This document shows, in pieces, positions 4,301 to 25,389 of a stretch of 25,389 nt of DNA. Source of the DNA: a virus; IMG/VR virus record IMGVR_UViG_3300030117_004504, positions 1-25,389 of that record; one strand, 5' to 3'. The translations under genes were made by a program, and so were the position numbers. Under the pieces are notes generated by a model that saw nothing but the letters and a program-made list of their open reading frames with translations, was not told where the DNA came from and did no database searches. Numbering within the stretch: position 1 is the stretch's first letter; every line of letters begins with the position of its first letter.

Positions 4301-7300
4301 AGTCTTATTAAAATCTTGCTTTTTATCTAACAAAGCATCCATTATAACGTCTCTTACGTTAGCGTTTTGTAACGCGTGTTCATATATTATTTTACCAGTA
4401 GCCGTAATATCTCCACCGACATACTCAGCGCCAGCTCTCATAGGATGCGAGGTATCGTTAACAGCACTTGATAAATATTCAAAAATAGCGCTGTGAAGAA
4501 CTTTATCTTTTGGATTATCTTTTATAGCTTTTTTAATCATATCTATCATATCATTAAAATTAGCTTTACTTACTTCGTTATATCTTTTAGCTTTAGCTTT
4601 TGTTATATTTTTTACGTTTTTACCTAAAGCGCCTTCGGCATCAGGTCTAAGATAAACCCTTTCAAGTTTTACTCCATTTAACTTGCCATCAACCGTAAAC
4701 AAACCTAACTCTTCATACAAAGTAGTTGATCTAGCGTAGTCTTTTACAGCACTATTAGTAATATTTCCACGTAAATCAACAGCTCTAATTAAACCAGGTT
4801 TACCATATGTAGCTAATAAAACCATTTTATCTGTAAACACGTCAAAGTTATTAAACCCATTTTTAGGGTCATTTATATTTAAGTCAGGCAAACCGTGTTT
4901 CTGAAAAACAGTATTAGATTTGCTAAACATAATACTAGACGTACCGTCTTTAATGTTTTGTATAGTTTGCTCATTATTGCCTAAAAGCTGTAAGTTTTCT
5001 CTTACCGCTTGGTTAGTCATTACTTTACCTGTTAAATTAGCTAATGCTAAAACTCTAGCCGATGTATTCCTATCATCACGAGTTGGCTTACCATCTATAA
5101 TACCAAATGTTTCTAAAAACTCTTTTTTGTTAATCTTATTTTTAATTTGTATTGGTAAACCTGATGTACTACCTGTTTTAGCCATTTTAGCTCTATCAGT
5201 TTTAGTATAAAAAGCTTTAAGCAAGCTGTTAGGTACTCCTGTAGCTGTACCACTTTGTGTAGATCCTTCAGGCAGCATACTAATTAATAAATCAGCATTT
5301 TTATTAATAAACATTTGAGCGGTTTGTAGCTCTTTTTTAGTTATATTAGCTAAAGTTTTTAATTTTCTAGGGTTTATACCAAACTTTTCACCTATTATTT
5401 CAGGTACTAAATTTTTTAACTTTTTAAACGTTAATTCACTAACGTTAAGTTTTGGTATTTGTTTTTTGATAGTTTCGTTAACTTTACTTTTAACATTTAG
5501 TCTATCAGCTAAAACTATTTTTTTAGGTTTTGGCTTTGTAGTAACCGTAGGCTCTGCTACTTCTTCCGCGGCTATATCTACTTTTTCTGTTATATCTTCC
5601 GTAAACTCTTCTCCTAGCACTCTTTTAGATGCTTCAATAGCTCTTTTAGGTAAGTTATCGTTAATATAAGCAGCTAATGGTACTCCTTTATTAGGATCAT
5701 ACGCTCTAATTAAATCAAATATACCACGTTTACCTATTTCAATTTCACTCATCAAAAGCTCTCTATCAAAATTAGGAGCTTCTCTACGTCTTTCTGCAAT
5801 TTTGCTTGTTATAGGCTTAAACTGCTCTATAATATCCATAGCCCCAGCAACGCCTTGTTCTTCGTAAATACGTTGAACATTGTCAGAAGCTGATTTAGAT
5901 AACTTAGGTGTTTCTACTTTACCTTCTCCTTTAGTTGCTTTAATAACACCAGAAGCTAAAGCGCCTTTGTGTATACTTTTATTATAATCCTTTAAAAAAT
6001 TATAAGCGCCTTGACCTGTTTTAAAATCCACTTTGGTATAACCTAAACTCGCAAAAGTTCTTCTAATACTGTCTTTTACTTTAGTAAAAATACTATCGTT
6101 AAACTTTATTTCGTTGTTAGCTATAGCGTCAGAAAATATAGTAAAATATTCATCTAAATTTTCAGCCATATACTCTGGCGTATAATTTTTATCTATTCTA
6201 TCTTGTATTTTGGCTTTGTTTTCTTCGCCTATAATATTTAAAAAATCATCTATAGTTTTTTGAGTTATATCTTTTTTTTGACCACTAGCTTTAATAATAC
6301 CATGCAATAACTCGTGATTAGCAACATTATCACCATACACCCTTGTTTTAGCTAACTTTTTATTAATAACAAGTTTATTATCTACAATACCACCTAGTGA
6401 ATTAGCTAAATCGTCACCATATTTTTCTTTTATTTGTTCTTGAGTTAAATTATCTTCAACTTCCAAACCATATAGTTTACTATGTTTTTTAGCAAAATCT
6501 AAGTTTGCTTCAAAATTTTTATCAGCAATATTTTCTCTAACTCGCTCCGCTGTTTTCTTTCTTGCCCTAACATCTGCCGTTCTACCATCAATAGCTGTAT
6601 ACTTACCAACTATTTCGTTTATCTGCTCCTCAATGTTTTCTAGCCTAGTATCAGCATTGATAACTTTAAATATACCAGACTTTTTGGTATCAACTTCTGC
6701 TTTTGCTCTTTGTTTTTCAAGGTCAACTAATTTCGCTCTATCAGCTGGATCTTCTACTTTAGCATCAATTTGAGTTTCTAAAGATATATCATATAATTTT
6801 CCATTAATAAGTTGGGCAAATTTTTCATCGTTTTTAATATTAAACTTTATTTTAGTTTTTTCTTCGTTAGTTAGTTTATCACTTTCTATTAAATCTAATA
6901 TTTCTTGTTTAGATCTTTTTTCACCATTTATATTATATTCACTTTTTTGAAGTGTTCCTTTAACTATTTCACCTACGTTTATAACTTGACCAGCGCCAGT
7001 TACTTCACCAATAGCCTCTAATGTTGCTTCACCTAAATCTATATCTTGCTCGGCACCTATTTGACCAGCGACCTCACCAGTAAAGCCACCTGTTGTTTCT
7101 ATAGCTGTTGTTGCTACACCAGCTCTACGAAACTTACCAGCTTTAACCAACTGACTACCAACGCCTCTTGATATACCAAGAGTCATAGCCTCAACAGCGC
7201 CTATATTTCTACCCCTAGCAGCTGCTCTTTGTTTTATTTTTTCAAACGTTTCAGTATCATCTATTACTGCTCTTATGTTTTCTTTTGTTAATTTTACACC

Positions 7301-13051: not shown

Positions 13052-16000
13052 TTATATACTATCTGTACTGCATTTACGTTGATCACTTAATTGCAAGGTA
13101 GTATCTACATTTTGCCAAGTTTGCCATGTACCATTTACTGTTTCACCGCCACTAGTTTTACACCCAGCAGTATAAGTGTTTTCAATTTGTACTGGATCAC
13201 AAAGACCATCGCTTGTGGTTATAATATATCTAACTGTAACTTGACTAACGTAGTCATTAGCATCTACTAGCCCAACGTTACCAGGAAAATTGTAAAAAAT
13301 ATCTGTATTTTGCAGGCTATTTGAACCAGTTGACTGAAAATCACCAAGGGGATTATCTTCTGCTATTAAAACCATATTATCGTTAAAAATCTTTCTAGTT
13401 ACATTAAAGTCATCTGGAACACCACTTGCATCCGTGTCATTATCATAAGTTGAACCTGAAGTTGGTGTAATTGATAGAACTAATCGCGTTGCCTGGTTTA
13501 TAGCGCTTCCTCCTATATAAGTTGTTACTAGTGATCTAGAAGAGTTAAAACACTGAACTTCATCATAAGTACAAACAGAATTATCAGTAACGGTGTAAAA
13601 ATCTCCATAATTATTTGCCGCGGAATCTGTACACCCTTCATATTCACAACCTACGTTTGCAGTTGCATTTGGATTGTAGTTATTTGGTTGTACAAAGTTG
13701 CCATTAGAATCTTGGTATATAGTTCCGTTATCCATACATCCAGGAATAGGATTAATACAAGATCCATTATTATAAATAACTCCTGTTAGATAACTACCAA
13801 AATCTGAAGAGCAACTACTTGGTTCATATTGGTATTCCCAGCCATCAAACAAAGTAACTGTTGAATCGGTACAACTACCAGCAAAGTCATAGTTAGTAGC
13901 ATAAGGATCTGTACAGCCATACCAAAAACAAGACCCATCATCAGTTGTTGCTAAAGGATTGTTATTAAAAGCTGTAGACTCTGTACAACCATATCCATAC
14001 AAACAACTACCATCATCACAAGTTGCACTTGAATTATGATTAGAAGCACTTGGATCTGTACAGCCATCGTTACATTGAACACAATTTCCATTACCATCAT
14101 CTACAAAACCAGCTAAACAATTACCATCACAATCAGCGTTTGTAGAAGGACCACTATCACATGAGCCATCGTTAATTACAGCTAAAGGATCATAATTACA
14201 CGCCAAATCACTTGTACATCCAGATATTGGGGCAGCGCTTGTAGTTATTGTTCCATATATCTGTAAAGCAGAAGGATTAGAGGTTGACACCGTAGGCGTT
14301 ACTGAACCACAAGCTGTTGTAACAAGTATTGTGTAGTTTACACCAGCCGAGATATCGGTATTAAACGTATGGGTTAAAGTAGAACCTGGCCCAATAGAGT
14401 TAATAATAGCAATTGAATAGTTATCATCATCATTACTATCTACTAGTATCGAGTAACCAGATAAAGGTGCTAACGAAACACCTGTAGGTTCGTCAAACTC
14501 AACAGTAATAGTATCGTGAGTTGCTGAAAGAACTAGATTGTTAGCAGCATCACAATACGTACAATAGTTGTTACAAGTTCCACCATCATAATTAAATACA
14601 GTAGAGCTTTCAAAATGATTACAGTAAGTACAACTTCCATCGTCTGTAGTAGCTAATGAATTATAATCACAAGACATTGGATCTGTACAACCACTTACTG
14701 GATACGTACAAGAAAAATCATCAGTGTTTGCTAAAGCACTATAATTAATTGCTGTAGAGTCTGTACAACCGCTAACCACAGCAATACATGAACCATCATC
14801 AGTATTTGCTAAAGAATCATGATTAAACGCTGTTGAATCTGTACAACCCATAATATAAGGTATACAACTATTATCATCGTTAGTAGCGTTTATATTATAA
14901 TTAAAAGCAGTAGCGTCTGTACATCCATTTATAACACATGAACCATCATCAATAGTAGCCTCTGGATTATAGCCTGAATCTGCATCTGGATCAGTACAAC
15001 CATAAATTATAGTTGCACAAGTTCCGTTGTCTATACCTGCTTGTGGATTATAGTTATCAGCATTAGGATCTGTGCATCCAGCTAATTCTAGTATTGTTGG
15101 TGTAGAAGACAATCTACCTAAACCTTGAAAAGAACTATCAGCACTATCAAAATCACTAAGAAAAATTCCATTAGTAGTAACGCTGTCAGTTACACCTTTT
15201 ATATGATTAAACCATTTACCTTCTTTTTCTATAAATTCTTTTACACTACCTTTTTCTAGATCAGTATTAATTGTTTCTACATACCAACCAGCTTTATCTA
15301 TTAGATTATAATACTCATTATCACTTATTGGAGCTGTAGCATTTGGATTTATAACACCTACACCTGTAACTGGATCTATAGTCCCAGGTAAATAAACTTG
15401 ATACGCATCAATCGCGTTTACATTAGACTGTGATCCTTCGTAATTTAAAGTTTTAAAAGATTTAACAATACCAGGATTTTCGTTAAATATTATAGTTATT
15501 TCAGAAGGTTTAGGTATATTATAAAAAGTATTTCTATTTATTTCTTCACCCGAAAGAGCATCGAACTTTTCAACATGATGTTTCCATAATTCACCTTGTT
15601 TAAACGTGTAATATTCATTAGCACAACTAATAGCGTTTTCTGGAGTAAAAGACTTAAAACTAACCCAACCTTTTACATTTTCTTTAAAAGTAACTGTTTT
15701 TGGATTACCATCTTCACTATTGTCAAGAGTTATATTATACTCACTTTTCTTATCATCATAGCTACCAACAAGTTTATTACTTAACTTTAAATTATCTCTA
15801 AACCAATCTTTCATACCAAAGTTTGATATTGGTGTTAAACCATCTTTAGATAATCTAACAACCGCGCTTCTAACTTTGTCTGTAAAGTAACATCTATAAG
15901 ATTCTGAAGCAAATGATTCTGGATTTTTAGATATACCGTAATCACCAGCATAAGGAATAGTTTGACCTAACACATTATTTGTAGCTGTTAATTGTGTGTT

Positions 16001-19000
16001 ACCATCTGCATTAAATACAGCATCTTTATTTGCTAGTATTTTTAAAACTCTATCTTCACACAACGCTATTAAGTCTCCATCAGCTGTAGATCTAGAGTGT
16101 AGCTTTTGAATACTACCATATATAGGATTTACATCTTTGGTGATTTTTTCAGCTGCTATAAATTGGTTTAAACTATTTACGCCAGACATTGAGTTGTATA
16201 AACCAGAATATATTAAACCATTTTTTCTATGTTCTTTTTTATAATTTTCACCTAAAGTTGTCGATGCTTTAACTCCATTTGCTATAAATGGTAAATTAAA
16301 AGTATCTTTAATTCTATTAGATTCAACACCATTTCCAAAAGAATAACAATTATACCAATCTAAAAAATAATTACTATTATATATATCTTCTTTAAGCTTT
16401 AAAATAGGTGGATCTGTAGGATCATCTCCATCTGGTGTTATATTTTCAACCTCAACTTCAAACGCTATACCGTTAGGTCTAGTTATTGTTAAAATACTAC
16501 CAATTACTAAAGGTGGTACTGTAAAAGTACCAGCACCTCCAAGACTAAAATCAATACCAACATCAATTTTTATTTCTCTTCCAGAGCTATATGAGTTTGA
16601 AGATACTTGTCCTAAATCTCCATTAGCACGACCTTCACCAGCCATACTTGTTACAGTAGATCCTATAGGTATTGCTGTGTTAATAGTGCTTGCGTTTAGT
16701 TTTGTTGGGTTGTTTTCACTTATTTCATAATAAACATCTAAACCTGTGTTTTCTTTAGGTTCTGTTTCCCAAACAAAAGGGTTTTCAGGTAAATTTCCAC
16801 CATCAGCGTATTCTTCAACTGGCTCCACAAACTGCATGGTATAACCAACAGCACCTATTTGTCCTAATTCATTAAAACCACCTATTCCACCTATTGGGTT
16901 GTTAATTTGACAAATATCCGTATTATCTTCTGTAAAGTTACTAATACCATTCATACACACTTGTACAAACTTTAGTCTTTCACCCACTGTAGGTGCACCT
17001 GCATTAAAAGGATGTGAGCTTGAACCACCATAGTTTAATGGTTTTTCATAACCAGCTAATTCTATTTCCCAACCTTTAGGATGTTCTTTAATATTTTTTA
17101 TAACAATATCATTTGCTTTAGGAGCATTAGTAGCGCTAGTATCAATATTATATTCTAAAAGTTTCATACCTTTATGAAGACTATATATAGTTTTTAAATC
17201 GTTACCATTACTACATTCAGTTTTTATATTATCAACTACAATGTGGTTGTATTCATTTGTTGGACTAGCCGTAGTACCATACATGTTATTTTCTAATAAC
17301 CTTATTGTAAATCCAAATTCAATATCTGTATCATCGCTAATAGTACCTGTTATAGGTTGTGCATTAAGAGGATCACTTAGAGTTATAACAAGTGTGTTAC
17401 CGCTTGTGGTTACACCACTTACTACCGCTGTGTTTGTTATATTAGTATTTGTTCCAGCTGACATTCCAACTTTTATAGAGCTAGCAAGATCATTGCCGTC
17501 TTTAACTGTTATAGTTAAACCAGCACTCGTAGATCCTACACTTTTTACTGTGTAAAATTGACCATCACCTAAATGTAAACCACCGGTAATACTTACCCCA
17601 GGTGCTTCAGCTGGATTCCAACTACTAATAGGTGGAGTAACTTCAAAATTAAAAGTTTTAGTATAAGATGAAGCCGCACTCATTAACATTAGTTGAGGTT
17701 CAACACTGCTACTATTACCATCTTCAGGCCAACCATGATCATATCTTGCAAATCTTGCATTTCTTCTATATCCAGTTTGACTTGTTATTGTATATATCGT
17801 CTCTGTTGGATCTTCTTTCCATTTAAATCTAAAACCAGCAGCTAAAGAGTTTGCGAATGTAGCTGAATTACTTACTCTAGTACCATTACCGAAACTAAAA
17901 TAATCAGAAAAAGTTCCATAATAATCACTGAATGTAGTATCTGGATTATAAGCCGTATTGTCTGCAAGAAATTGTTGCACTGCAGTACCATCATCAGCAA
18001 CACCTCCACTCCAATTATCTCTTGGTAAAAAATCAAAACCACCAAAACCTAAATTTATAATTGAACTAGTCGGTGTATTTTGAATACCATCACCAACGTT
18101 ACTACTAGCACCAGTATAACCACAATCCGCAGCATTATTACATTCTGGTGAAAACTCATCGTTCATATTGCTTGAGTTAGGCCAAACTAAATCATTGTCA
18201 TCATTATCAGTGGTAGGAATGGTGTATTTTATAGTTCCTTGATCTATAAACCAAACACCCATTTGTCCTGTAGAAGGAGTATTTTCATTATCATCTCCAT
18301 AATTATTTATATAACGAGAATTTAATACACTCGCAACTTGACTAGCTGGTTTATTTTGTAGTATACTTATATTTCCTGTTTTATGAAAATAAGATTCTCT
18401 TGCTACACAGTGATTAAAATTACGATCTAGTGCATCATAATTTCCAACCGTAGAATCTGCACCATAGTCAAAATCAACCCAATTTTTATTATCACTAACT
18501 ACGGCAGCCGCACTTTTCTTTTTTAAATTAACATCATTATCTAAAAGATAAATTTGTTTACTAGTTGTTTCCACGTAATTGGTACCAACAGAATCATCAG
18601 TTATTTGAGTTTGTATTTTACCATCGTTTTCAATTTTAACAAAAAATCTACCGTCAAATTGAGGTTTATTCTCAATAACAGCTTTTGTAAAAACTATTTT
18701 AGTTTCATCAAGTATTTCGTTTATCGAACTACTATTATCAAATATAAAATCTATATCATTAGTAATATTTGTAGCAAGCGTTACGTAATATTCAGTTGGA
18801 TCAGTGTTTGGGCTTGTGGAGTCATCTCTATTAGATGTAATTTCTGATACCTTGTATTGTTGAGAAACATCACCAGCGCTAACAAACTGTACGTATATAT
18901 CTTCTGTAATATCTTCCATTCTAGACAAACTAGTAGATGCAAATCCAGCACCATAAGACATTGTAAATGATATACCATTTACCTTTGGAGGTTGGTTGTT

Positions 19001-22000
19001 CATGTAAAAAAGCTGATCATTACTACCAGTGTTAAAGTGCGAAATAGTTCCTATACGTATTCTTCTAGTTTTAATAAATTCTGGAGCTTCGTTTTCTATA
19101 GCTAAAACCTTGTATTTTGTAGAGTTTTCTATAACATTTTTATCGCCTTCAGCCCCTCTTTTAAAATATAAAAATGTATCTAAATCTATTTTGTTTCTAT
19201 CAGAAGAAGGGAAAGCTAGCCATATATTACCATCCTCGGCTTTATACCAACGATCCATAGGTACATTATAGTACTCGCTAGAAGTTTCTTTTATATAAAA
19301 CTTATAATAAAGCATTTCTGGAGGTATAGCGCCTTGCAATCCAACTTTTAGTTTATTTGCGTTTATAGACTCTGTTTTTTTAACTCTAAAACCACCGGTT
19401 TCACTGATTAAAACTGGAGTTTCTCTACCGTATTCGTCGGTAAAAACAACACCAAGTTTATAATCTCTTAAAGATTTAATTGATTTTTTTGGTGTACCAC
19501 TGTTTGATGGTGTCCAAGAATATATAGAGTTTTTAAAATCTGGTTGGTAGTTTAAATTACCAACTTTTAAATCATAATTTTGCTCGTAGTTACCATATAT
19601 AATTCTACTACCACTAACTGCTTGTGCTAAAGCGGTTTTTGGTACGTTATCCCAAGTTCTTAAAAGTTGATTAGCATCAATCGTGCTTTTTATTGTTTCA
19701 GATTTTATTAAATACTCACCAGTATCCCAAGGTCTAGAATCTCCAGCTACAGCTATATCTATAGGACTAATTGTTTGAACAAGATAAACGTTTGGAAAAG
19801 CATCTTCTTTATATAATATATCTACTTCAACTATATCTCTACCCAACAAAGAATTAGCAGTTGTTGGTTTAAAACCTTTAATTTTTATAGACTTAAGGTT
19901 ATTAATCATACCTTTATTCCAACCTTTTTTAGGATCATAATTAAATGAAGTTGGTAAAAAAGCTACTTCAGACCAAGGTGCAAAAGTAGAATACTCACCA
20001 TCTTCATATTTATATCTATAAGAAAATCTTGGAAATTTATCTTCGAATATAACAGGTTCTGTGTCTTCGTAATCAACAACGTAATTTAATTTACCAATAT
20101 ACTGAAGATTAGATGGAACACTAGATGGAACTCCATTTAATCCAACAACTTGTATTTGAACTTGAACAGTACCGTTGTTGCTATCAAAATTGTTATCTTG
20201 ATGATCTGTTATTAAGCCTCTTATCGTCCAATCAGCAAGAGGTGTAGCTGGAGCCGTAAAACTAGTAGCACTAGTTAAATTAAATTCTTTTAACAATAAA
20301 TAACCACCAACTTCCCACGCAAAGTTAACGTCAGAAACTAAATTAATATCAGTTTCTACAGAAAAACGAACTGTATCTCCAACTTGTAGTGCTGAAAAAT
20401 CAAATTGAACATTAGTATTTGAAGAACTAAGTATAGAAGTTGTACCGGAATCTATACCTATGGTTGTTATTCCAGTATAATCTAATAACTTATCTCTTCC
20501 ATCGTTAAGCTCTAAAGTTAAAGCGTTTTTAGGTGATTTACGAATTACTGTAATATGTTCTTCTCTTGCTATTATATTGCTACTATAATTTACGCCTTGT
20601 GCTTTATTTATTAAACGAGTAGAAAAAATCCCAGTATCATCCGTACCTTCTATACTTCTAGATATATTTATTTTTTTAGGCTCTGTCTTTCCATCAGTAA
20701 AGAAAAGCATATCATCTATAATATCTATTCCTGTAATATTTTGATTATGATTAAAGTTTAGTGTTCTAGGACCATAGAACATAAATCCTTGATATCCACC
20801 CGTGAGATTTAGATTATCATTTAATATAATAGTAGGAGAAGTTAAAATTTGCAACTGCCCACCAATTGGTGTGGGTATTCCGTTAAATATAACTCCAACT
20901 GGAAAACCTGATAATTCGTTTTGGTTAGCATCTTGAATTTTTATAGCATTGCAAAGACCACTAGGACCAGGGTTTCCACCACAAACTGTATCATCTATGT
21001 CACTTATAAAAAATAAATTACCATCGTATTGGACTTGATCACCAATGTTAAGATCACCTGCGTTGTATTGATTTTCGTTTAAATACAACCATCCAGTAGC
21101 TACATCTGTTGTTGTAGTGTAAGTTCTTGTAATTCGTAAAGTTAAAGGTGTTTGGTTAGGCGCAAAAGAAGTTGAGTATGCAGATAAAGAACCAGTAGCT
21201 GCAGCTGGAGTTGGCTGTGATAAAGTAAAATTTCCTATAAAAGATATAGAACCTGATACTGTAGAAGCGTCGTAATTATAAGGAGTTTCTAACTGCAACT
21301 CAACAACTTGTTCACTAAATTCATAAATAGGATCTCCTTGAAAATAAACCATTTGTTTAAAAGAAGCAGCAATAATTTTGTTTCCTGGTGGTGTTGTTGG
21401 AAAACCATCAAGAAATACTTCAGCGTCTATTAAGCCACTTAAACTACCACCTGTCCATTCACTTATATATATTATATTTGAATTAGCTGGATTATAACCT
21501 GTTGTAGGTGTTACACCAAACGAAGAAATAGGTGATAACATAGGTATAAAAACATCATTACCAACTTTATCCACCGTATAATCAGGACCAACTACAGTAG
21601 TGCTTATTGATGAAGCGGTAGATTGTTCTGATGCAAATTCAAAATCAACGATTACTTCATTAGTTATATCAGATACTTCAACAGCATTAGAGGTTGATGT
21701 TGTATTACCAATATTTACACCAACAACATTCCAACCAATTTCAATTTCACTTAACAAATTGTTTGTAAAGTTAATTAGAGACAACTCGTTAGAATTAGTT
21801 ACTAATTGTTCTTCGTTTGGAACATAAAAAGCATATTTATCTACAAATACAAGCTCGCATCCATTGTCAGAACTATATTTGCAAATAAAGTCTTTCATTG
21901 AAAAACTATTAGCAAGATCAATAGATTCTTGTTCACTAATAGTTGTTGTGCCAAAGCCACTTATAAAAGAATTAATACTTGAAAAAGAATTACCTGAAAC

Positions 22001-22255
22001 AAACCAATATAAAGAATCGTTTTTTTCGTCAGATATTGATCCTACTGTATATGCGTCTTTACCTAAAATATTATTAAACTCAGTGCTACATCCCGCGGTA
22101 TTACCCAATATATTTTGTACAGCACCAACGTCAGATCCTTCTGAAGTTGAAACCTGCACGTTCATTGCATCTCTATATTCTCCATTTGGAACAAGTCTTT
22201 CGTCAAGATCCTTGTTCATCTTACCACCGGTAAAATTATGCTTTATTTCTGGCAT
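13052..22255 (-). CDS. giant tail nozzle / fibre-like protein with C-terminal Cys/Asp repeat array
   Basis: 3067 residues, the largest gene. Residues 7-51 hold the motifs NFTGGKMNKDLDERLVPNGE, YRDAMNVQVS and GAVQNILGN. This N-terminus is typical of podovirus and crAss-like tail nozzle (tail tubular B or stabilisation) proteins, of which T7 gp12 is a distant analogue. The next 2300 residues are long and beta-rich, with many aromatic and Asp/Asn residues. A VGM-type beta module lies at about 1572-1648, shared with neighbouring genes. From 2393 to 2898 there are twelve Cys/Asp repeats (GCTD...NY...DDGSC), split by a fibronectin-III-like domain at about 2574-2675. A tail of about 170 residues with another beta domain ends the protein. 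T7 gp12 is only about 800 residues, so the extra length probably forms an external, adhesin-like part reaching the host surface; this is inferred. It starts three bases after the upstream TAG. No frame breaks were seen. Confidence 0.85.
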   Translation of the reverse strand: MPEIKHNFTGGKMNKDLDERLVPNGEYRDAMNVQVSTSEGSDVGAVQNILGNTAGCSTEFNNILGKDAYTVGSISDEKNDSLYWFVSGNSFSSINSFISGFGTTTISEQESIDLANSFSMKDFICKYSSDNGCELVFVDKYAFYVPNEEQLVTNSNELSLINFTNNLLSEIEIGWNVVGVNIGNTTSTSNAVEVSDITNEVIVDFEFASEQSTASSISTTVVGPDYTVDKVGNDVFIPMLSPISSFGVTPTTGYNPANSNIIYISEWTGGSLSGLIDAEVFLDGFPTTPPGNKIIAASFKQMVYFQGDPIYEFSEQVVELQLETPYNYDASTVSGSISFIGNFTLSQPTPAAATGSLSAYSTSFAPNQTPLTLRITRTYTTTTDVATGWLYLNENQYNAGDLNIGDQVQYDGNLFFISDIDDTVCGGNPGPSGLCNAIKIQDANQNELSGFPVGVIFNGIPTPIGGQLQILTSPTIILNDNLNLTGGYQGFMFYGPRTLNFNHNQNITGIDIIDDMLFFTDGKTEPKKINISRSIEGTDDTGIFSTRLINKAQGVNYSSNIIAREEHITVIRKSPKNALTLELNDGRDKLLDYTGITTIGIDSGTTSILSSSNTNVQFDFSALQVGDTVRFSVETDINLVSDVNFAWEVGGYLLLKEFNLTSATSFTAPATPLADWTIRGLITDHQDNNFDSNNGTVQVQIQVVGLNGVPSSVPSNLQYIGKLNYVVDYEDTEPVIFEDKFPRFSYRYKYEDGEYSTFAPWSEVAFLPTSFNYDPKKGWNKGMINNLKSIKIKGFKPTTANSLLGRDIVEVDILYKEDAFPNVYLVQTISPIDIAVAGDSRPWDTGEYLIKSETIKSTIDANQLLRTWDNVPKTALAQAVSGSRIIYGNYEQNYDLKVGNLNYQPDFKNSIYSWTPSNSGTPKKSIKSLRDYKLGVVFTDEYGRETPVLISETGGFRVKKTESINANKLKVGLQGAIPPEMLYYKFYIKETSSEYYNVPMDRWYKAEDGNIWLAFPSSDRNKIDLDTFLYFKRGAEGDKNVIENSTKYKVLAIENEAPEFIKTRRIRIGTISHFNTGSNDQLFYMNNQPPKVNGISFTMSYGAGFASTSLSRMEDITEDIYVQFVSAGDVSQQYKVSEITSNRDDSTSPNTDPTEYYVTLATNITNDIDFIFDNSSSINEILDETKIVFTKAVIENKPQFDGRFFVKIENDGKIQTQITDDSVGTNYVETTSKQIYLLDNDVNLKKKSAAAVVSDNKNWVDFDYGADSTVGNYDALDRNFNHCVARESYFHKTGNISILQNKPASQVASVLNSRYINNYGDDNENTPSTGQMGVWFIDQGTIKYTIPTTDNDDNDLVWPNSSNMNDEFSPECNNAADCGYTGASSNVGDGIQNTPTSSIINLGFGGFDFLPRDNWSGGVADDGTAVQQFLADNTAYNPDTTFSDYYGTFSDYFSFGNGTRVSNSATFANSLAAGFRFKWKEDPTETIYTITSQTGYRRNARFARYDHGWPEDGNSSSVEPQLMLMSAASSYTKTFNFEVTPPISSWNPAEAPGVSITGGLHLGDGQFYTVKSVGSTSAGLTITVKDGNDLASSIKVGMSAGTNTNITNTAVVSGVTTSGNTLVITLSDPLNAQPITGTISDDTDIEFGFTIRLLENNMYGTTASPTNEYNHIVVDNIKTECSNGNDLKTIYSLHKGMKLLEYNIDTSATNAPKANDIVIKNIKEHPKGWEIELAGYEKPLNYGGSSSHPFNAGAPTVGERLKFVQVCMNGISNFTEDNTDICQINNPIGGIGGFNELGQIGAVGYTMQFVEPVEEYADGGNLPENPFVWETEPKENTGLDVYYEISENNPTKLNASTINTAIPIGSTVTSMAGEGRANGDLGQVSSNSYSSGREIKIDVGIDFSLGGAGTFTVPPLVIGSILTITRPNGIAFEVEVENITPDGDDPTDPPILKLKEDIYNSNYFLDWYNCYSFGNGVESNRIKDTFNLPFIANGVKASTTLGENYKKEHRKNGLIYSGLYNSMSGVNSLNQFIAAEKITKDVNPIYGSIQKLHSRSTADGDLIALCEDRVLKILANKDAVFNADGNTQLTATNNVLGQTIPYAGDYGISKNPESFASESYRCYFTDKVRSAVVRLSKDGLTPISNFGMKDWFRDNLKLSNKLVGSYDDKKSEYNITLDNSEDGNPKTVTFKENVKGWVSFKSFTPENAISCANEYYTFKQGELWKHHVEKFDALSGEEINRNTFYNIPKPSEITIIFNENPGIVKSFKTLNYEGSQSNVNAIDAYQVYLPGTIDPVTGVGVINPNATAPISDNEYYNLIDKAGWYVETINTDLEKGSVKEFIEKEGKWFNHIKGVTDSVTTNGIFLSDFDSADSSFQGLGRLSSTPTILELAGCTDPNADNYNPQAGIDNGTCATIIYGCTDPDADSGYNPEATIDDGSCVINGCTDATAFNYNINATNDDNSCIPYIMGCTDSTAFNHDSLANTDDGSCIAVVSGCTDSTAINYSALANTDDFSCTYPVSGCTDPMSCDYNSLATTDDGSCTYCNHFESSTVFNYDGGTCNNYCTYCDAANNLVLSATHDTITVEFDEPTGVSLAPLSGYSILVDSNDDDNYSIAIINSIGPGSTLTHTFNTDISAGVNYTILVTTACGSVTPTVSTSNPSALQIYGTITTSAAPISGCTSDLACNYDPLAVINDGSCDSGPSTNADCDGNCLAGFVDDGNGNCVQCNDGCTDPSASNHNSSATCDDGSCLYGYGCTESTAFNNNPLATTDDGSCFWYGCTDPYATNYDFAGSCTDSTVTLFDGWEYQYEPSSCSSDFGSYLTGVIYNNGSCINPIPGCMDNGTIYQDSNGNFVQPNNYNPNATANVGCEYEGCTDSAANNYGDFYTVTDNSVCTYDEVQCFNSSRSLVTTYIGGSAINQATRLVLSITPTSGSTYDNDTDASGVPDDFNVTRKIFNDNMVLIAEDNPLGDFQSTGSNSLQNTDIFYNFPGNVGLVDANDYVSQVTVRYIITTSDGLCDPVQIENTYTAGCKTSGGETVNGTWQTWQNVDTTLQLSDQRKCSTDSI
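13562..15079 (-). repeat. twelve Cys/Asp (GCTDxxAxNY...DDGSC) protein repeats interrupted by an FN3-like domain
   Basis: Within the giant nozzle gene the translation shows twelve units starting GCTD (or GCTS, GCTE, GCMD), most with xxAxNY and ending in D-D-G-S-C or a variant. Six are upstream (residues 2393 to about 2565) and six downstream (2679 to 2898) of an FN3-like segment, which starts LVLSATHDTITVEFDEP. Unit length is about 24-26 residues in the regular copies and longer in copies 6, 7, 10 and 11. Copies differ at the DNA level, so they are old or selected to vary. Such repeats are common in secreted proteins of marine Bacteroidetes and occur in some marine phages. The Asp pattern suggests calcium binding. 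Confidence 0.85.
17312..17542 (-). repeat. single beta module in the giant nozzle gene, like those in the adjoining tail genes
   Basis: Residues about 1572-1648 read LTITVKDGN, then IKVGMSAGTNTNITNTAVVS, then LVITLSDPL, and end DDTDIEFGF. This is the same succession of elements as the modules at 10521-12224 and 22727-23233. Sequence identity is low, so the match rests on pattern. Confidence 0.45.
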
Positions 22256-23648: not shown

Positions 23649-24395
23649 TTATTGTATTTTTGATTGTTGTTGTTTCATCATTGTTTCCATGCTTTGTCCG
23701 GCTTGAGCAGCATCTTGTCTCTGCATAGAAATTCCAGCGTATTTTAATATTTTATAAACTAACTCTGTTTCTTCAGATGGATGTAATTCAAAGTCAACAG
23801 CGTTAGTAGCATCATACATTGCTTTTTCGTTAATAACAACGTAAGCCCAATTAGCTTTTAGTGGAAGTCTAAAATAATGTATACGAATAGGTGTAGTATT
23901 AATTGTAGCATCGCTTGTTGTTACTCTTATTCCGTTATTTTTAATTACTGCTACTGGTCGTTGTTTTGTTGGTTTTATTAAAGAGCCAATATTACCTGTT
24001 AAATTACCATAAGTACAGGCATTAAAATCTTTTACATTTAATATTTCAGCTTTTATAAAATCTTGCATAAATATTTCGTGAACTCTATACATATATTTAG
24101 GTATATTAGGATAGTAACTATTAATCGACGAACCTCCTTCCCATTCAGAAAAATTAGTCGTATCTGCAGTGTCAAATATCTGTATTTTTTGCTCTAACAT
24201 ATCGTCTATATCAGCATAAACAGTATCGTTACCTTGAACTCTTCTAGCAGCATTAGTATCGTAAAAATATTGTTCAAATATTTCCATTTGTGCTTGATTA
24301 GCAAATAAATTAAACTCTTGAGGAGTTATATAACCTCTTTGCTCTTTGTTAGCAAATGCTAAAACTCTTTGATATACCGTATCTATACTTATCAT
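23649..24395 (-). CDS. putative head-tail adaptor / ring structural protein
   Basis: 248 residues. The N-terminus MISIDTVYQRVLAFANKEQR, then GYITPQEFNLFANQAQMEIF, is a helical segment that I recall as highly conserved in crAss-like and uncultured marine phages, where the gene sits among the connector genes. The middle holds mixed beta segments (RPVAVIKNNGIRVTTSDATI; TTPIRIHYFRLPLKANWAYV). The C-terminus is helical: EETELVYKILKYAGISMQRQ, then a Gln-rich end. No transmembrane or catalytic motifs are seen. It is followed after three bases by the larger connector-like gene and precedes the nozzle, supporting a place in the neck. A specific name such as ring protein 2 would be a guess. The start ATG has the A-rich leader AAAAAGAAATT. 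Confidence 0.8.
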   Translation of the reverse strand: MISIDTVYQRVLAFANKEQRGYITPQEFNLFANQAQMEIFEQYFYDTNAARRVQGNDTVYADIDDMLEQKIQIFDTADTTNFSEWEGGSSINSYYPNIPKYMYRVHEIFMQDFIKAEILNVKDFNACTYGNLTGNIGSLIKPTKQRPVAVIKNNGIRVTTSDATINTTPIRIHYFRLPLKANWAYVVINEKAMYDATNAVDFELHPSEETELVYKILKYAGISMQRQDAAQAGQSMETMMKQQQSKIQ

Positions 24396-24404
24396 AATTT
24401 CTTT

Positions 24405-24569
24405 TTAGTTATTATAAGGAAACAATCTATTTAAAGTATCCTTTCTTTCTCCACAACCACAATCTTTACCTGTTGCTTTAGCAACCTTATCTACAACTTT
24501 TTTTATTCCAGTTGCTTTTGTAATTTTTTCTATTGTATCGCCTAAACCTTTAGATTTTTTCTTTTCCAT
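24405..24569 (-). CDS. small basic Cys-containing conserved phage protein
   Basis: 54 residues when started at the ATG at 24569; an in-frame ATG at 24614 would add 15 residues (MQSLYGAIANYKLYY). I prefer 24569 because it has the usual A/T-rich leader (ACAAATTATATT) and because the upstream 15 codons coincide with a structured GC-rich element. The protein reads MEKKKSKGLGDTIEKITKAT, then GIKKVVDKVAKATGKDCGCG, then ERKDTLNRLFPYNN. It is strongly basic and helical, with a C-G-C motif. I recall the KGLGD...TKATG...CGC.ER...LN..FPY pattern from many marine phage proteins, several of which run on for another 20 or more residues, so this copy may be a short form. No function is known to me. It sits just ahead of the connector genes. 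Confidence 0.7.
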   Translation of the reverse strand: MEKKKSKGLGDTIEKITKATGIKKVVDKVAKATGKDCGCGERKDTLNRLFPYNN

Positions 24570-24589
24570 ATAATATAATTTGTAGTTTG

Positions 24590-24618
24590 CAATCGCCCCG
24601 TAGAGCGACTGCATCTAC
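24590..24618 (-). promoter_or_regulatory. candidate H-type RNA pseudoknot in leader of the small basic protein gene
   Basis: On the minus strand, CAGTCGC (24611-24605) pairs with GCGATTG (24596-24590) as a 7-bp stem with one G-U pair. In addition GTAGA (24618-24614) pairs perfectly with TCTAC (24604-24600) inside that loop. The two stems interlock as an H-type pseudoknot with loops of 2, 0 and 3 bases, or else compete as alternative hairpins. The element is GC-rich in an AT-rich genome and ends 20 bases before the preferred start codon at 24569. If the ATG at 24614 is used instead, the element is coding. A translational switch or autoregulatory site is possible; no known riboswitch class was recognised. 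Confidence 0.45.
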
Positions 24619-24625
24619 AGTTTGA

Positions 24626-25389
24626 TTAATTATTTAATCTTTTTTCAATATTGGAGTAAATCTCCATACCTTCATCAGTTTTAAACCAAGCGGCTAAAGC
24701 TGAGTAAGGGTGTTCGTCAAACGGAACGTTCATTAGTTTTCTATTGTTAGAAGCCCAAGTAAAAGTTCTTTGATCTGAAGATAATTTTAATATACCCATT
24801 TCAGTTGCTCTAATACCAAAGTTTCTAAGAACTACATTTTCATCATTAACTAGTTCTAAAAACAAAACAGGATTTCTCTTAGCGTATAATAATAAGTCTC
24901 GTTTAAGTTCTTTAGAACTCATGTTAGATACTGCTGAACCAACTTCTACTCTCATTACTGCTTCAGCCATATCAATATCTAAGTTTTTAGCAGCATTTAA
25001 AGCTTCTATTTCTAATTCTAACGAATCGATTTGATCTTCAGCAATTTTAGCTGGTTTATACTCGTAATAAGTTTTGTTTACTTCAGGATGATATAATGAT
25101 AATAGTTTTTGTAAAACTGTTTTTTCTTTTTCAACAAACAAAGCACCATTTCTAAAAATAATATGTTCTAATCTTTGATCGCCTTTCATTTCATCTACAA
25201 ATACTGTTTTTTGATTTTGACAATACTTGAGTTCTCTTTCGTAACCTTTTTCTTCATCAAACCAGTAAACGTTTGCAGATTTTATCATTTTAGATAAAGG
25301 TCTTTTGTTTCCTTTTAAATAATAAACTCTATCTTTTATTTCCCAAGTTGGTTTTTTAGGTTCAACTTTTTTAGGTTTTGGTGTTTCAA
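24626..25389 (-). CDS. conserved phage protein of unknown function, 5'-truncated by window edge
   Basis: The frame is open to the right edge, so the gene begins outside the window. An internal ATG at 25288 is probably not the start, because 33 in-frame codons precede it without a stop. Those codons are Lys/Pro-rich (ETPKPKKVEPKKPTWEIKD), suggesting a flexible linker. About 254 residues are visible. The middle is acidic and helical (ILEAL-like segment around EDQIDSLELEIEALNAAKNL). The C-terminal part, RDLLLYAKRNPVLFLELVND and SSDQRTFTWASNNRKLMNVP, then PYSALAAWFKTDEGMEIYSN, I recall as conserved in marine phages, again without a function. There is no membrane segment or catalytic motif. Its place just upstream of the connector genes suggests a head- or assembly-related role. 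Confidence 0.75.
   Translation of the reverse strand, partial: ETPKPKKVEPKKPTWEIKDRVYYLKGNKRPLSKMIKSANVYWFDEEKGYERELKYCQNQKTVFVDEMKGDQRLEHIIFRNGALFVEKEKTVLQKLLSLYHPEVNKTYYEYKPAKIAEDQIDSLELEIEALNAAKNLDIDMAEAVMRVEVGSAVSNMSSKELKRDLLLYAKRNPVLFLELVNDENVVLRNFGIRATEMGILKLSSDQRTFTWASNNRKLMNVPFDEHPYSALAAWFKTDEGMEIYSNIEKRLNN

Follow-up and report, generated by a model that had tools for sequence, protein, structure and literature searches.

A conserved two-part RNA hairpin between a capsid-side gene and the neck gene in an uncultivated group of marine phages

The end of gene X and the hairpin that follows it

The window, i.e., the whole stretch of DNA analyzed here (25,389 nucleotides), is part of a 33,638-base virus record (IMG/VR IMGVR_UViG_3300030117_004504) with its genes on the minus strand. 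In the order of transcription these code for the portal protein (phrog_6547), a 387-aa protein, the major capsid protein (MCP; phrog_13704, 'virion structural protein', with the MCP label resting on the gene order and a VirFam note in the relative Calle_1), and a protein of at least 253 aa, termed gene X here, whose stop codon lies 6 nt before the structured element; a small basic gene and the neck gene come next. The features of this junction are as follows:

24626 to 25389, minus strand: gene X, C-terminal part, with its start beyond the end of the window (phrog_34748, function not annotated)
24581 to 24619, minus strand: complete two-part RNA hairpin (fold energy, covariation, and covariance-model match)
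24615 to 24619, minus strand: outer stem, 5' arm TGTAG (fold and alignment-free helix counts)
24603 to 24613, minus strand: inner stem, 5' arm TGCAGTCGCTC (fold and covariation)
24599 to 24602, minus strand: UACG tetraloop in c(UACG)g, a UNCG loop (fold and loop counts in relatives)
24588 to 24598, minus strand: inner stem, 3' arm GGGCGATTGCA (fold and covariation)
24581 to 24585, minus strand: outer stem, 3' arm CTACA (fold and helix counts)
24570 to 24580, minus strand: 11-nt unpaired A/T-rich leader before the next start codon (sequence)
24405 to 24569, minus strand: small basic protein, 54 aa from the ATG at 24569 (phrog_32048, function not annotated)
23649 to 24395, minus strand: neck/virion structural protein (phrog_14543, head and packaging)

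Relatives of gene X are found in 85 records of cultured phages, 83 of which come from Flavobacterium (68) or Cellulophaga (15), and the host of the window phage is therefore probably a marine member of Bacteroidetes. Elsewhere in the window, a 3067-aa protein with GCTDP...DDGSC-type repeats is encoded at 13052 to 22255 on the minus strand, the sole Pfam match of which is to crAss_MUZ_C (26.5 bits, just below the cut-off of 27). Runs of N occur in the record within gene X (about 391-400 of its locus, L251) and in the terminase frame near 6204.

Read from 24619 to 24581, the hairpin runs TGTAG, A, TGCAGTCGCTC, loop TACG, GGGCGATTGCA, AA, CTACA, with an outer stem of 5 bp that a 1x2 internal loop separates from an inner stem of 11 bp, two of them G-U, topped by a cUACGg tetraloop. 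The stop codon of X ends at 24626 and is followed by 6 nt, the hairpin, 11 nt, and the ATG at 24569, with no U tract directly 3' of the hairpin. The original prediction was of a compact pseudoknot at 24590-24618, and both of its pairings are present on the minus strand, viz., CAGTCGC (24611-24605) with GCGATTG (24596-24590) and GTAGA (24618-24614) with TCTAC (24604-24600). The element is structured beyond chance: none of 200 shuffles matched the fold energy of the 29-nt stretch (-13.3 kcal/mol, z -4.2) or that of 24575-24625 (-23.8 kcal/mol, z -7.4), and in a sliding 51-nt scan of both strands of the 33.6-kb record the hairpin is the lowest-energy window. Its minimum-energy and centroid folds (from a program that does not score pseudoknots) are both the two-part hairpin. 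The inner stem is longer than had been noted, with 11 bp and a cUACGg-closed tetraloop, using the 'TC' of TCTAC, and the pairing of GTAG with CTACA (24585-24581), which lies just beyond the predicted element, had been overlooked. No Rfam family matches the element at gathering thresholds, which agrees with the new phage RNA motif offered as one possibility in the original prediction; the best weak match (Prevotella-2, 22.5 bits against a threshold of 72.1) is chance-like.

Conservation, covariation, and strand

Relatives were drawn from three protein scans of viral contigs (at least 80, 80, and at least 80 loci) and from genome contigs (5 loci). Among the resulting 251 sequences, 235 matched X and 233 contained its stop codon; 228 extended 75 nt beyond it, of which 183 are distinct. 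All counts below, save those from parsimony, are of distinct sequences rather than independent events, many of the loci lying on contigs that overlap or recur. A hairpin of at least 9 bp directly follows X in 178 of the 183 distinct relatives (among the matches listed), most often starting 6 nt past the stop codon (110/178), with the outer stem beginning at a median of 6 nt and the inner stem at a median of 12 nt past it. In 133 of the 178 the loop is cUNCGg, i.e., CTACGG (90, including the window), CTTCGG (37), CTGCGG (5), or CTCCGG (1). The gene that comes next is the small gene in 89 relatives, the neck gene (directly 3' of the hairpin where the small gene is missing) in 85, and neither in 4, and the spacing is alike for both kinds of next gene, with medians of 6 nt from the stop codon to the hairpin and 12-13 nt from the hairpin to the ATG (170 of the 178 being measurable); the latter distance is 10-15 nt in 153 of the 170. 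Given that the hairpin follows X ahead of either gene, it is not the small gene's own leader; it is a boundary element tied to the end of gene X. The original prediction was right about the location, with the small basic gene and the neck gene lying downstream, and the small gene is indeed next in the window, but it is with the end of gene X that the hairpin travels.

The same distribution bears on the explanation that the original prediction had itself set against a structural element, viz., that what is conserved is coding sequence, for 15 residues that would extend the small protein at its N-terminus (ORF 24405-24614). This frame is open in the window and tblastn matches often include residues 1-15; however, the in-frame ATG (24614 in the window) is kept in only 23 of the 82 small-gene loci, the hairpin is also retained by relatives that have the neck gene in the next position, and its changes track base pairing. 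The 15-residue stretch is not conserved as coding sequence, and we rejected this reading, to which we attach almost no credence. Two recoding schemes were also discarded: the frames of X and the small gene are -1 apart with a TAG directly before the hairpin ATG, and therefore no simple frameshift joins them, while bypassing of the T4 gene 60 kind was dropped because the next gene varies among relatives and keeps its own ATG.

A protein-independent scan with the DNA pattern of the hairpin recovered at least 120 stretches and returned at least 80 loci; of the 80 listed, 79 have X upstream and one has only 24 nt of flank, with none placing the hairpin anywhere other than the X junction. A covariance model finds a single strong site in the window (24574-24625, 66.6 bits). 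Across 22 records, it matches 16 at E-values up to 0.1, with one strong site (E below 1e-6) in 15 of these and a weak one alone (0.086) in G016; three further matches comprise two to the opposite strand of the same site and a weak one in G002 (E 0.029), and no match was obtained in 6 of the 22 records, four of them from cultured phages. When four long records were searched for cUNCGg hairpins of at least 6 bp, the X hairpin was recovered in all four, the terminator of the MCP gene in three, and two others besides.

The exceptions to the presence of the hairpin are L034 and L217 (one contig), L212, L214, L220, and L228. In the contig of L034 (around 4850-5162) and L217 (G015), X and the small basic protein form one continuous reading frame and no hairpin is left; this might reflect a genuine deletion, or else a short repeat at which the assembly was joined. 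In the remaining four, the gene inserted after X is small, unrelated, and preceded by a long leader without structure, and the hairpin does not directly follow X.

For covariation we used a MAFFT alignment (A1) of 143 of the 144 prepared distinct segments, which leaves out seven loci with U-tract or outgroup terminators and an incomplete segment (L125), and in which related sequences inflate all cell counts. A free RNAalifold prediction on A1 returned a 10-bp inner stem, with 98.7% of its cells paired and double compensatory changes in 9 of its 10 pairs. For the 15-pair structure, 91.9% of cells are paired against 83.4 in shuffled alignments, 262 cells have double changes against 77.3, and the covariation score is 0.465 against 0.292, a value that none of 500 shuffles attained; when the partner is shifted by one to three columns, this score drops to 0.159 or less. 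By parsimony on a FastTree phylogeny of X, pairing in the inner stem was kept through 136 double and 131 single changes and was broken 17 times. The outer stem behaves differently in the two ways of looking at it. On the A1 alignment and the X tree it has 15 double and 30 single pair-keeping changes against 80 breaks, which counts against it; in an alignment-free comparison, an outer helix of at least four Watson-Crick pairs can be formed in 161 of 169 distinct relatives, using 32 different helices, against a mean of 27.9 (maximum 42) with permuted flanks and 115.7 with 3' flanks swapped between loci, these counts, the one line of evidence for this stem, being raw locus counts that ignore kinship. 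By parsimony on the X tree it was gained or lost 7 times.

There are 278 G-U cells as opposed to 24 C-A cells, and the coding strand is therefore the one that folds. These figures also weigh against the possibility that the inverted repeat acts as DNA, as an origin, recombination site, or hairpin promoter, or else through an antisense RNA. As DNA it folds as well (-11.6 kcal/mol), but the opposite strand folds worse as RNA (-16.0 vs -23.8 kcal/mol), and the UNCG cap is an RNA-stabilizing loop; we consider such roles scarcely credible. Taken as comparative sequence evidence, these results show a two-part hairpin kept by selection on the coding-strand RNA, at the X junction alone, its conserved fold combining a UNCG-capped inner stem (10-11 bp), a small internal loop, and an outer stem (5-6 bp).

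Compensatory changes in both stems had been named as what would support the proposed pseudoknot; they are found in the inner stem, while the interlocking stem shows no excess of them, its numbers of double-change pairs and of pair types being reached by 376 and 417 of 500 shuffles, respectively. On the X tree it shows 15 double changes and 89 breaks. The share of its cells that are paired (75.8% against 73.1% shuffled) was reached by just 1 of 500 shuffles, and the 5' flank can form at least four Watson-Crick pairs with the loop in 108 of the 169 relatives (22.5 with permuted flanks, 78.5 with loops swapped), GTAG facing CTAC in 88 and ATAG facing CTAT in 11 of the 169. Much of this association between loop and flank may be shared ancestry, and the X tree calls for 33 gains or losses of the interlocked form compared with 7 for the outer stem. 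On the strength of the covariation and tree counts, we rejected the pseudoknot as the conserved fold; it may exist as an alternative conformer in some members of the group.

The model invoked for it was the leader of T4 gene 32, described in the passages of PMC3014915 concerned as a true pseudoknot 67 nt upstream that is bound by gp32. A leader of that kind on the small gene, with a phage protein as its ligand, would share with our element the placing of a structured phage RNA ahead of a gene, and the GTAGA/TCTAC complementarity in the window as well as the loop pairing in relatives might speak for it. However, the present element is a hairpin common to two different next genes (with the neck gene in place of the small gene in 85/178), two interlocking stems conserved by covariation were not found, and the interlocked pairing competes with both the UNCG cap and the outer stem, which makes a leader of this kind very improbable. 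What stands of the proposed regulatory RNA is a real, conserved sense-strand RNA with compensatory changes, though not in the form of a pseudoknot, and regulation of translation by it is possible.

The hairpin and the terminators of the same gene run

The junction after the MCP gene offers a control from the same phages. A textbook intrinsic terminator with a UUCG loop and a U tract lies at 467-484 of L251 on the minus strand (about 25466-25483 of the record, just beyond the window), directly after the major capsid gene and, in relatives, a median of 29 nt before gene X; it might be a dosage device like T-phi of T7. Across the group, a strong hairpin (at least 7 bp and -10 kcal/mol, against a threshold of at least 9 bp at the X junction) is present at this junction in 165 of 167 distinct regions and is UUCG-capped in 109 of the 165. 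Like the X hairpin it is a UUCG-capped hairpin after a stop codon, and differs in having a U tract, a 29-nt leader, and no second stem, as opposed to no U tract and a 12-nt leader at X.

The two junctions differ in the U tract: at least 6 T in 8 follow the hairpin in 164 of 165 MCP junctions and in 9 of 178 X junctions. With a threshold of at least 5 T in 8 within the 12 nt 3' of the inner stem, a tract was found in just 3 of 169 relatives; in a looser T window the window phage reaches 5 of 8, because its leader is A/T-rich. The window hairpin is G/C-rich, as in an intrinsic terminator, but it lacks the U tract and is not among the predictions of a terminator scan of the window, and a canonical terminator at this junction was rejected. 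T content and spacing go together: six X hairpins are followed by at least 7 T, five of which have the next ATG 37-59 nt away (the sixth being L247), whereas in loci with fewer than 5 T the next ATG is within 25 nt in 135 of 136. The hairpin-to-ATG distance is 12-13 nt at the X junction and 29 nt after the MCP gene of these phages, where it varies just as little around that other length (standard deviation for the central 90%, 1.8 against 1.6 nt).

Some distant relatives are organized otherwise. In all five cultured relatives examined (elemo, Panino, phi38:1, Calle, and phi18:3; L246-L250), a U-tract terminator is present at both junctions, and a U-tract hairpin also follows X in L200, L219, L237, and L127. 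The motif TAnnTTTG, which we take to be the host-like promoter consensus, occurs 3' of the X terminator in elemo, phi38:1, and Calle, and is missing there in Panino and phi18:3. An identical 19-base block, possibly a phage promoter, lies between a U-tract terminator and the small gene in L200 (3844), L219 (3836), L237 (3841), and L228 (4309); a search of the window that allowed up to 3 mismatches gave no match to it. We infer, from an unrooted comparison, that a terminator, with a promoter in some cases, marks this boundary in the distant relatives, and that a co-transcribed hairpin lacking the U tract replaces it in the window's group.

The X hairpin might be a pause site or a weak or factor-assisted terminator that descends from the ordinary one of those relatives. 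The U-tract hairpins after X in the loci just named are consistent with this, as are L228, where a U-tract UUCG terminator stands one gene further on (3' of the inserted gene and before the small gene), and the fact that a hairpin with a UNCG loop is the make-up of most MCP terminators in the same phages. Against it stand the missing U tract and the association of T-rich hairpins with a distant ATG and of T-poor ones with a near ATG. Moreover, TAnnTTTG was found in 0 of 171 X junctions, so that full termination would silence the neck and tail genes unless a promoter of another kind were present there. We regard a terminator or pause site of this sort as unlikely.

Possible functions on the read-through message

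The literature search retrieved no paper on this element, which does not show that none exists, nor did it retrieve a 'Mu-like gpT downstream element'. The closest known kind, by loop and place, is the intergenic CUUCGG (UNCG) hairpins of phages, with which the element belongs: its loop has the C(UNCG)G closure in the 133 relatives counted above, and it lies between the X stop and the next start. Such hairpins, known from T4 and other phages (Tuerk et al. 1988, as cited in PMC8948821), are described in the relevant part of PMC8948821 as common, mostly intergenic, and of varied roles that include the stability of T4 gene 32 mRNA. They share with the X hairpin a very stable cUNCGg-closed stem between genes on the coding strand; the X hairpin differs in occurring at one junction per genome, mostly with N=A, in its outer stem and internal loop, in its fixed distances to stop and start without a U tract, and in its covariation across an uncultivated group. 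The L17 downstream element, as outlined in PMC2864571, is a conserved bacterial RNA structure by a stop codon whose strand was set by G-U pairs; it resembles ours in both respects, and its sequence, structure, and hosts are other ones.

Phages need major capsid protein in large excess over neck and tail parts, with the genes for these lying close together. The hairpin most likely tunes neck and tail expression relative to X on messages that would have been read through the MCP terminator, by ribosome-sensitive pairing or by mRNA protection.

We tentatively favor ribosome-sensitive pairing, which would set the amount of neck and tail protein relative to X post-transcriptionally. The 5' arm of the outer stem, 7-11 nt past the X stop, would sit about where a terminating ribosome still covers the message, and its 3' arm, around positions -12 to -16 relative to the next start codon, would fall in the zone that needs to be unpaired for initiation, whereas the inner stem, beginning about 12 nt past the stop, would stay folded. 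A ribosome finishing X could then open the outer stem and free the next start region; with no ribosome terminating there, the outer stem would close and damp initiation, the UNCG-capped inner stem serving as a scaffold that may also shield the RNA from exonucleases. We favor this because the outer arms are placed at the positions of the terminating and initiating ribosome with the inner stem starting at 12 nt, and because the leader is 12 nt at the X junction as against 29 nt at the MCP junction, an argument from spacing that is weakened by the equal tightness of the MCP junction at its own length. In Flavobacterium johnsoniae, according to the sections of PMC6847099 on initiation, pairing is depleted from -20 to +20, which goes with efficient initiation, and adenines at -3, -6, -12, and -13 favor it. 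These rules, which we applied here, may not be those of the window phage's host, itself deduced from the hosts of cultured relatives. To our knowledge, hosts of this kind (Bacteroidetes) do not use Shine-Dalgarno sequences.

A related arrangement is that of the split ribosome-binding sites of T4 genes 25 and 38, where, per the pertinent passages of PMC3014915, a hairpin shortens the distance from the Shine-Dalgarno sequence to the AUG. The likeness lies in a junction hairpin that shortens the effective distance to a start codon; in T4 it stands between the Shine-Dalgarno sequence and the AUG, and no GGAG or AGGA was seen, by eye, in the 25 nt just upstream of the window hairpin.

Two further points tell against ribosome gating: it would not call for an inner stem this strictly conserved, and the outer stem is poor on the MAFFT alignment and tree. 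A role in mRNA stability or processing is nearly as likely as ribosome-sensitive pairing. After an endonucleolytic cut close to the junction, the UNCG hairpin would block 3'-to-5' exonucleases on the X message and/or, as a 5'-terminal stem-loop, stabilize the neck and tail message, with the cistrons decaying at different rates. The very stable, strictly kept, UNCG-capped inner stem would fit protection, as would its retention without a U tract, and hence without termination, and the mainly intergenic phage CUUCGG hairpins, one of which stabilizes T4 gene 32 mRNA (going by the same part of PMC8948821), offer a precedent; protection leaves unexplained the closeness of the outer stem to both the stop and the start codon.

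Whether through ribosome-sensitive pairing or protection, two adjacent junctions of one gene run, across a large uncultivated marine group, present a textbook terminator next to a hairpin kept for another purpose. Such a pair would make a clean natural test of how intercistronic RNA structure sets the ratios of virion parts without Shine-Dalgarno sequences.

The interlocking complementarity could also be read together with the outer stem, as a strand-exchange switch in which the 5' arm (GUAG or AUAG) pairs either with the 3' arm (CUACA or CUAUA) or with CUAC or CUAU in the loop. Ribosomes at the stop codon of X or at the next start would decide between the two, coupling capsid-side and neck-side translation. 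We consider such a switch improbable.
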